From Meghimatium bilineatum (lineage: Eukaryota; Mollusca; Gastropoda; Stylommatophora; Philomycidae), in assembly GCA_034231615.1 (NCBI GenBank), contig CM067298.1, forward strand, positions 1,493,834-1,557,833: a stretch of 64,000 nucleotides of DNA, read 5' to 3'. Position numbers and translations under genes: made by a program. This document shows positions 36,301-39,300 of this stretch, in pieces. The notes beneath the pieces were generated by a model, which saw only the letters and a list, made by a program, of their open reading frames with translations, did not search any database and had not been told where the DNA came from. Position 1 is the first letter of the stretch. The number at the start of each line of letters is the position of its first letter.

Positions 36301-39300
36301 ACAGACTGCTCAAGTAATCCATGATGGCCTTGGCTTCCTGCTTGAAAACTTTACCCACAGCACCTTTTTGTGGCTGGCATTCGATGACATCTACAGTTTT
36401 GTGATTCATAGTTAAGAAGAAATAATTGGATGCTCTGCTAGAGATTCATATGCCAATTCATTCTTGACTAGTTCCTTGTCTGTACTACACCTTCGGGAGT
36501 AAGTAACTGACAAAATTAACATCAAGTAAAAGACAGCATGTGTAAGCCATTGTATTTTGCTTCTTTCAAGCTCTTGGAACATGCTTGCAGGTCTCCGAAT
36601 CATAACAGGAGGACTAAGGAGCACTCCTATAACATCAATGGAAGCAACAGCAAGATTACAAAACCTAACAGACCGCAGGGATGAGAAAATCACAATGACA
36701 GAAAAATGTAGACGCCTGAAACATCACCCTATGCATGAGAAAAACAAATGAACTAACAAAAAACCGACTGAAAAGACCAAGCTTCAATCACCTATCAAAA
36801 AAACTTATGAAAGCCAATAAAGAAGCAACCAGCAACAATCCGGATGAATGGGAACAGCTAGAAGCATATTGCAACATCGCAAACACTTCACCCATATATA
36901 CTGCAAAACTTACAATACCAGGCATTGAGAGAAAAACTATGGAAAACCCTACTGCCCTTAAAGGCAAAAACACTTGATCAGCTAGACACCCAATACCCTA
37001 CCTCACAGTGGATTCATGTCTTCACAGATGGATCATCAGAGGGTGCAGTAAAGAATGGAGGAGCTGGGATACTAATACTCATACCAAACACCCCAAAACT
37101 AGAACTCTCAATTGCTACTGGCAAATTATCAACAAATTACAGGGCAGAGCTACAAGCAATCTTGGAAGCATCAAAGGCTCTAGAGGAACGGAGGCTCAAA
37201 GGAGCTAACATAGTCTTCTTGTGTGACTGCATGTCAGTACTCCAAACCACCCAAAAGGAACCTAAAGATCTCCTAACAAAAACAACTGTAGAACTTCTAA
37301 ATCAACTGTCTGCCAACAATAAAGTTGTGCTGCAGTGGATCCCTGCACACTGTGGAATAGCAGGAAATGAAGGAGCTGACAGACTGGCAAAAGCAGGTGC
37401 AAAAAAGGAACAATTCCAGCACAGAATATCACTGACTGAAGCAAAAACCCTCATCAAAGGAAAATACAAACATACATGGAGCCAGAGAACAGGCAGTAAC
37501 TTTCCACAGGACCCTATTCTAAATCAAAACAGGTTACAACAAACCACAATTTTTAGACTTCGCACAGGACATTGCAGACTACAAGCACATCTCCACAAAA
37601 TTAAGGCTGTCCAAACTGACCATGTCAAAAGGGTCCCCAGACTCCAGAACATATTCTGCAGACATGCCCACTCTTTGATGACGTGAGAACCAAAATATGG
37701 CACCAAGAGACAGATCTGAAGGTGAAGCTGTGGGGCAACCGTGAGGACCTCCTGCTGATGACTGAATTCATGGAGGCGACCCACCTTCCTGTATAGACTT
37801 ATGAGCATAGGAAACTGATCGCAGAAGAAGAAGATTGTGTTATGTAACTCATGCAGAGATCTGTACAGTTTTTCTTTCACTGTTGCTTCTCTGGACCAGT
37901 GTATTTGCCATAACATTTTATATTTCTTACATTCCTGAAAAATATGTTCTGCTGTCTGAAGTGCCTGTTCACATGGCTGTTGCCAATGTTGTTTCTTGAT
38001 GGAGGTCCCTACTGGACTGTAATGTGAAAAATATGTTCTGCTGTCTGAAGTGCCTGTTCACATGGGTGTTGCCAATGTTGTTTCTTGATGGAGGTCCCTA
38101 CTGGACTGTAATGTGAAAAATATGTTCTGCTGCCTGAAGTGCCTGTTCACATGGCTGTTGCCAATGTTGTTTCTTGATGGAGGTCCCTACTGGACTGTAA
38201 TGTGAAAAATATGTTCTGCTGTCTGATGTGCCTGTTCACATGGCTGTTGCCAATGTTGTTTCTTGATGGAGGTCCCTACTGGACTGTAATGTGAAAAATA
38301 TCCTTGTTCCTTTGTTTCTTGTTATTTCTCATCAACATTATTTTTTGCTATTCATTAGTTATTTTAGTAATCAGTAACTAATTATAAATATAATAAGTAT
38401 AAATAATTAGTATCATTATCACTCGACATGTTATGTTTTCTTGACACAGGCCCTTTGGTCAAAACTTCAATTTAGCAAAGGTTTTTTGTAAATTTAATAC
38501 AGTATGCAAACTTGAGCGTATAAAATTAAAAAGGATATAGGAGCTGGCAATGGTTTCTCAGCAACCAGCTTGACATTAGTAGCTTTACTGTGTTGTGTAA
38601 GATCATAGCAAGACCTGTCAGCACAGCCAACACATTCTACCCAGCCCTGAAACATACAAACATGTCTACCAGAAACTGATACAAATCTGATATACAAGCA
38701 AGTCTTCAAGGATTAATAGATACATGGTAACTTACCATAGAAACTGTTTTTTAAATGAATAACAGATGAGATACACAGACCTACATCAGTGCTATCTATG
38801 TGATGTGTCCTCTACATAACTTTGTCCACACTGCCACTCTGTAAGCCTCTCGGTTTTGTGAAAGTTATCCAGCATCATCTAGTGTCATGTTCAAGTCTTC
38901 AATATATTGTGTCTATCATAGTCTTGGTCTGCCTCTTGTTCTCTTTCCCGGAACTTTTCCCTTCATCATTAATCATGACTGTCTTTGTATACATCTCAGT
39001 AGTTTGCCATTGCTTTCTGAGCTGGTTCTTGTCATTTATCAGTTACTGTTCTTGATGCACCCTCAGGCCAATACAGGGCCATTCCAACTCCCGCCTTCTC
39101 TACCAGCAGTTGTGTGTACAATAGGGGAGGCATCCCCACATAGTTCAGCTGACTAGCTACGGTTGTTGTACAGGGGGTGGTGTTGACATGAGCAGACACG
39201 TGGAGCCATATGTGAGCTAGACAAGAGTGTGGTGTTGACACGAGCAGACACGTGGAGCCATATGTGAGCTAGACAAGAGTGTGGGAACCAAATAAGATAT

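Follow-up and report, generated by a model that had tools for sequence, protein, structure and literature searches.

The minus strand of the window, by which we mean the whole 64-kb stretch of DNA analysed, encodes a glycyl-tRNA synthetase (GARS). A tblastn search with human GARS gave exons spanning position 63824 down to 15198, and the exon ends were assigned by reading the sequence. One further exon lay outside the initial match list and was added to the gene model (Table 1). The joined exons give 658 open codons followed by a stop, with a provisional N-terminal start, and the product shows 61.7% identity to the human protein in an alignment of 660 columns, 2 of its positions being gaps. The identity of the gene as proposed in the initial annotation is confirmed. 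A plus-strand tblastn row at 29358-29531 (30 bits) overlaps a transposase ORF and was discarded as a chance match. Among the 16 genome matches listed no spliced GARS retrocopy was present, all of them being the gene itself, and no confirmed relatives of exons 10 and 11 were obtained from 22 pattern matches in the viral contigs and 115 in the genome contigs.

Table 1. Coordinates of the GARS gene, the splice signals of its intron 10 and the repeats within this intron (positions in the window)
Feature	Position	Strand	Remarks
GARS gene	15195..63824	-	16 exons in window, stop codon included; N-terminal start provisional
Further GARS exon	47957-47881	-	outside initial tblastn match list
GARS exon 10 (GWVECVGC...EKPLPAP)	38539..38646	-	last base 38539 (CCT)
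GARS intron 10, U12-type AT-AC (predicted)	36401..38538	-	2138 bp, phase 0
GARS exon 11 (KTVDVIEC...SLNDKG)	36255..36400	-	first base 36400 (AAA)
5' splice site ATATCCTTTTT	38528..38538	-	C at +5
Branch-site motif TTCTTAAC	36411..36418	-	last A (36412) 11 nt from intron end
3' splice site AC (TCAC/AAA)	36401..36402	-	
89-bp tandem array	37936-38301	.	4.1 copies, inside intron 10
LINE remnant, RNase H domain (PF00075)	ORF 36862-37686	+	antisense to GARS

The 15 introns of the gene in the window comprise 14 with GT-AG ends (introns 1-9 and 11-15) and one, intron 10, with AT-AC ends. The length of intron 10 falls inside the range of the other 14 introns (911-7532 bp); across species, median lengths of minor and major introns are described as correlated (PMC10639083). 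The boundaries of intron 10 read CCT/ATATCCTTTTTA ... TTCTTAACTATGAATCAC/AAA.

Introns of the U12-type AT-AC class have the 5' splice site consensus ATATCCTT(T), a branch site resembling TTCCTTAAC close to the 3' end, and an AC terminus without a pyrimidine tract beside the acceptor. Intron 10 shows all three features. The donor reads ATATCCTTTTT, the motif TTCTTAAC lies shortly before the 3' end and differs from TCCTTAAC at one position, and the intron ends with CTATGAATCAC/AAA, in which no pyrimidine tract adjoins the AC. Because of the C at position +5, the branch motif and the missing pyrimidine tract beside the acceptor, the U12 class is near certain on sequence grounds. The initial annotation had placed the donor exactly where the reading frame requires exon 10 to end, and a branch match 11 nt before the terminal AC; both are found there, the donor with exact coordinates and the branch motif with its last A at 36412. 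It had also taken the coincidence of these elements with phase 0 as support. The elements do coincide, but phase 0 does not speak for a minor intron: it is no hallmark of this class and is its less usual phase, surveys having found a bias against it (PMC10639083 and PMC7367187).

The protein determines where the junction must lie. When exons 10 and 11 are joined at 38539/36400, all 85 residues align gap-free with human GARS (E about 4e-27; 8 distinct chain sequences were matched, and 4 alignments were inspected). In the chain numbering of this alignment the intron falls between the residues that correspond to human P435 and K436. The 20 nt before the end of exon 10 and the 14 nt after it contain no GT, in line with the earlier statement that a frame-keeping GT donor is absent near this site. 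A conventional GT-AG intron whose ends lie elsewhere, by which residues would be gained or lost around PAP/KTV, could draw on a weak donor within exon 10, which scores 4.0 and would make 38589 the last exon base, and on AG acceptors upstream of exon 11 at which the frame stays open (exon starts 36437, 36434 and 36432). The donor candidates considered were all GT and GC dinucleotides between the first base of exon 10 and the earliest in-frame stop (38496); the acceptor candidates were all AG dinucleotides between 36600 and the last base of exon 11 at which the frame stays open. The scoring matrices were built from the same 14 GT-AG introns, none left out, so that the scores of the gene's own sites are somewhat flattered. 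The best of 20 donor candidates reached 4.0, compared to 5.7-11.2 for GARS's own 14 donors, and the best of 17 acceptor candidates 4.2, compared to 7.8-12.0 for its own acceptors. None of the 110 GT/GC-AG pairs that keep the frame has sites close to the usual range of the gene. All except one of these pairs alter the length of the protein, and the remaining one, with scores of -0.8 and -2.1, exchanges conserved residues for intron-encoded ones. A GT-AG intron at this place is thus very improbable.

A second alternative accepts the AT-AC ends but assigns them to the major spliceosome. The splicing pathway cannot be told from the terminal dinucleotides alone, and sodium-channel genes have U2-dependent introns, for example SCN4A intron 21, that share the AT-AC ends with intron 10 (PMC2831892). 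However, the sodium-channel introns carry G at +5, whereas GARS intron 10 carries C. Its complete ATATCCTT, a TTCTTAAC motif whose last A lies 11 nt before the intron terminus, and an acceptor that no pyrimidine tract adjoins also speak against U2-dependent splicing, to which we give even less credence than to displaced GT-AG ends. That the locus is a dead or misassembled GARS copy, whose junction is never spliced, is the most remote of the alternatives; nothing was found in its favour, its 16 exons are open, its other 14 introns are GT-AG and all 16 genome matches listed sit at the GARS locus. Compared with these readings, a U12-dependent AT-AC intron accounts for the junction with a probability of about 0.96.

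The number of motifs by itself is not informative. On the minus strand of the 64 kb, ATATCCTT and TTCTTAAC occur once each, both at intron 10. On both strands together ATATCCTT was observed 3 times, with 3.02 expected from shuffled sequence, and TTCTTAAC followed by AC gave 2 matches, both from the intron 10 motif, with 1.71 expected from shuffles. Since these counts are at chance level in the window, the evidence lies in the position of the motifs and not in their number. From the shuffle rates, the probability of finding ATATCCTT on a given base is near 2.4e-5 and that of TTCTTAAC with a nearby AC near 1.3e-5. The occurrence of both motifs at the sites required by the protein is far from chance, also when the 15 introns and some motif variants are allowed for approximately.

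The components of the minor spliceosome were searched in the genome (1.6 Gb, 32 contigs). For each of the four snRNAs one match above the Rfam cut-off was obtained, namely U12 (123.7 bits), U6atac (98.9 bits), U4atac (84.9 bits) and U11 (110.8 bits), and the cores that pair with the donor and the branch site are present in these snRNAs. In the 64-kb window itself no Rfam family matched above its cut-off. A second U4atac-like match in the genome scored 52.1 bits against a cut-off of 53 and is perhaps a pseudogene. In addition, a C-terminal piece of PDCD7, the U11/U12 59K protein, gave a match over the Pfam cut-off at positions 269-306 of 306. Duplex energies calculated with the genome's own snRNAs are consistent with the sites in intron 10 but not discriminating: among 4000 random stretches, 702 were equally stable for U11, 155 for U6atac and 927 for U12.

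Other genes of the same genome served as controls. KCMF1, STX6 and PHB2 have AT-AC U12-type introns in fly, and their human orthologues have U12-type introns of the same subtype (PMC2831892). KCMF1 is present in two copies, in each of which an exon ends at the match to human position 142. The sequence after this exon reads ATATCCTTTTATAA or ATATCCTTTGGTTA, and that directly ahead of the following exon reads CTTTAACTAAATTTAC or CCTTAACCAGAGCCAC, the first of these acceptors having been identified by eye and not by the pattern search. Both copies thus have the ATATCCTT donor and a branch-like motif ahead of AC, as in GARS intron 10. In STX6 the same donor motif was found within the end of an exon match, as GTTG/ATATCCTTGTTT, on the donor side only. 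The PHB2 minor intron was not found, as all four exon matches inspected, from the middle part of the gene, have GT-AG boundaries. AT-AC minor splicing in this genome is, judged from these sequences, supported at both ends by KCMF1 and at one end by STX6, but not by PHB2. The two multi-exon KCMF1 copies, on contig C1 at about 12.63-12.64 Mb and on contig C2 at about 106.86-106.87 Mb, carry the AT-AC minor-intron ends at the same place and may stem from a large-scale duplication, whereas GARS is single. Elsewhere on contig C2, positions 121989805-121990428 and their flanks are a nuclear copy of mitochondrial DNA with parts of nad4 and nad2 (both named by eye) and of cox1 on one strand. The gene order resembles that of pulmonate gastropods, and the animal may be a land snail.

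The description of intron 10 as a 2.1-kb intron hosting a LINE and an 89-bp array is correct; both are real and lie inside the intron, at a distance from its splice signals. Over 69 residues the RNase H remnant on the plus strand is similar (48%) to a LINE piece on the minus strand at 7915-8241, which itself has an RNase H match just below the Pfam cut-off. A stretch adjoining the array reads as a minus-strand LINE protein, with 47% over 49 residues to the minus-strand ORF 7320-7673, and intron 10 therefore contains two or more LINE pieces that differ in orientation. For the 89-bp unit at least 43 matches in the genome were listed (40 candidates scored). Four of them are end-to-end and correspond to the array units in intron 10; the matches elsewhere, at least 39, are 83-95% identical and cover at most about the first 60 positions. 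A portion of some 56 bp of the unit is dispersed in the genome. It seems that the array grew from one of the LINE pieces of intron 10.

Further elements are located in other introns of the gene. Intron 12 contains two DDE_Tnp_1_7 ORFs (window 27756-29687, plus strand; E 4.5e-11 and 1.9e-54), a piggyBac-like transposase in pieces. Intron 1 contains a LINE on the strand of the gene (window 59864-61558, minus strand) with endonuclease (PF14529, PF03372) and reverse transcriptase (PF00078) domains, and in intron 3 (window 54679-57414) there is a long regular repeat in which several frames are open on both strands.

Taken together, the initial reading as a U12-type AT-AC intron stands: the elements are located at the junction required by the protein, the genome contains the snRNAs and other AT-AC minor introns, and no credible GT-AG alternative was found. 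Intron 10 of the only GARS gene detected in the genome is, in all probability, a U12-dependent AT-AC intron. In the predicted splicing reaction the donor sequence AUAUCCUUUUU would base-pair first with U11 and later with U6atac. U12 would pair with UUCUUAAC, leaving the branch adenosine bulged, and CCT and AAA would be joined in phase 0 by the minor spliceosome. If the intron were retained, translation would continue through 14 intron codons and stop at the TAA at 38496. It is conceivable, though unlikely, that slow AT-AC splicing limits GARS output, so that glycine charging would follow the activity of the minor spliceosome, and that the repeats in the intron may add to the delay.

GARS is a known minor-intron gene in mammals. 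In one study U12DB served to select mouse Gars as a gene with a U12 intron (PMC3695530), and U12 introns of human GARS are reported to be abnormally processed in RNPC3 patients (PMC7612377). The gene and the intron class are thus shared with GARS intron 10. The literature searches led to no paper that states where the minor intron of GARS lies or to which subtype it belongs; GARS is not named in the main text of PMC2831892, PMC6717393, PMC7367187 and PMC11460701. Since GARS was known before to hold a minor intron in mouse and human, intron 10 is a sound but ordinary example, and it leaves the knowledge of minor introns unchanged. For annotation, a gene model forced to GT-AG would misplace the junction of exons 10 and 11. 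What intron 10 adds is a well-resolved minor-intron example from what is probably an invertebrate, in a gene for which disturbed minor-intron splicing is reported in human RNPC3 patients (PMC7612377).
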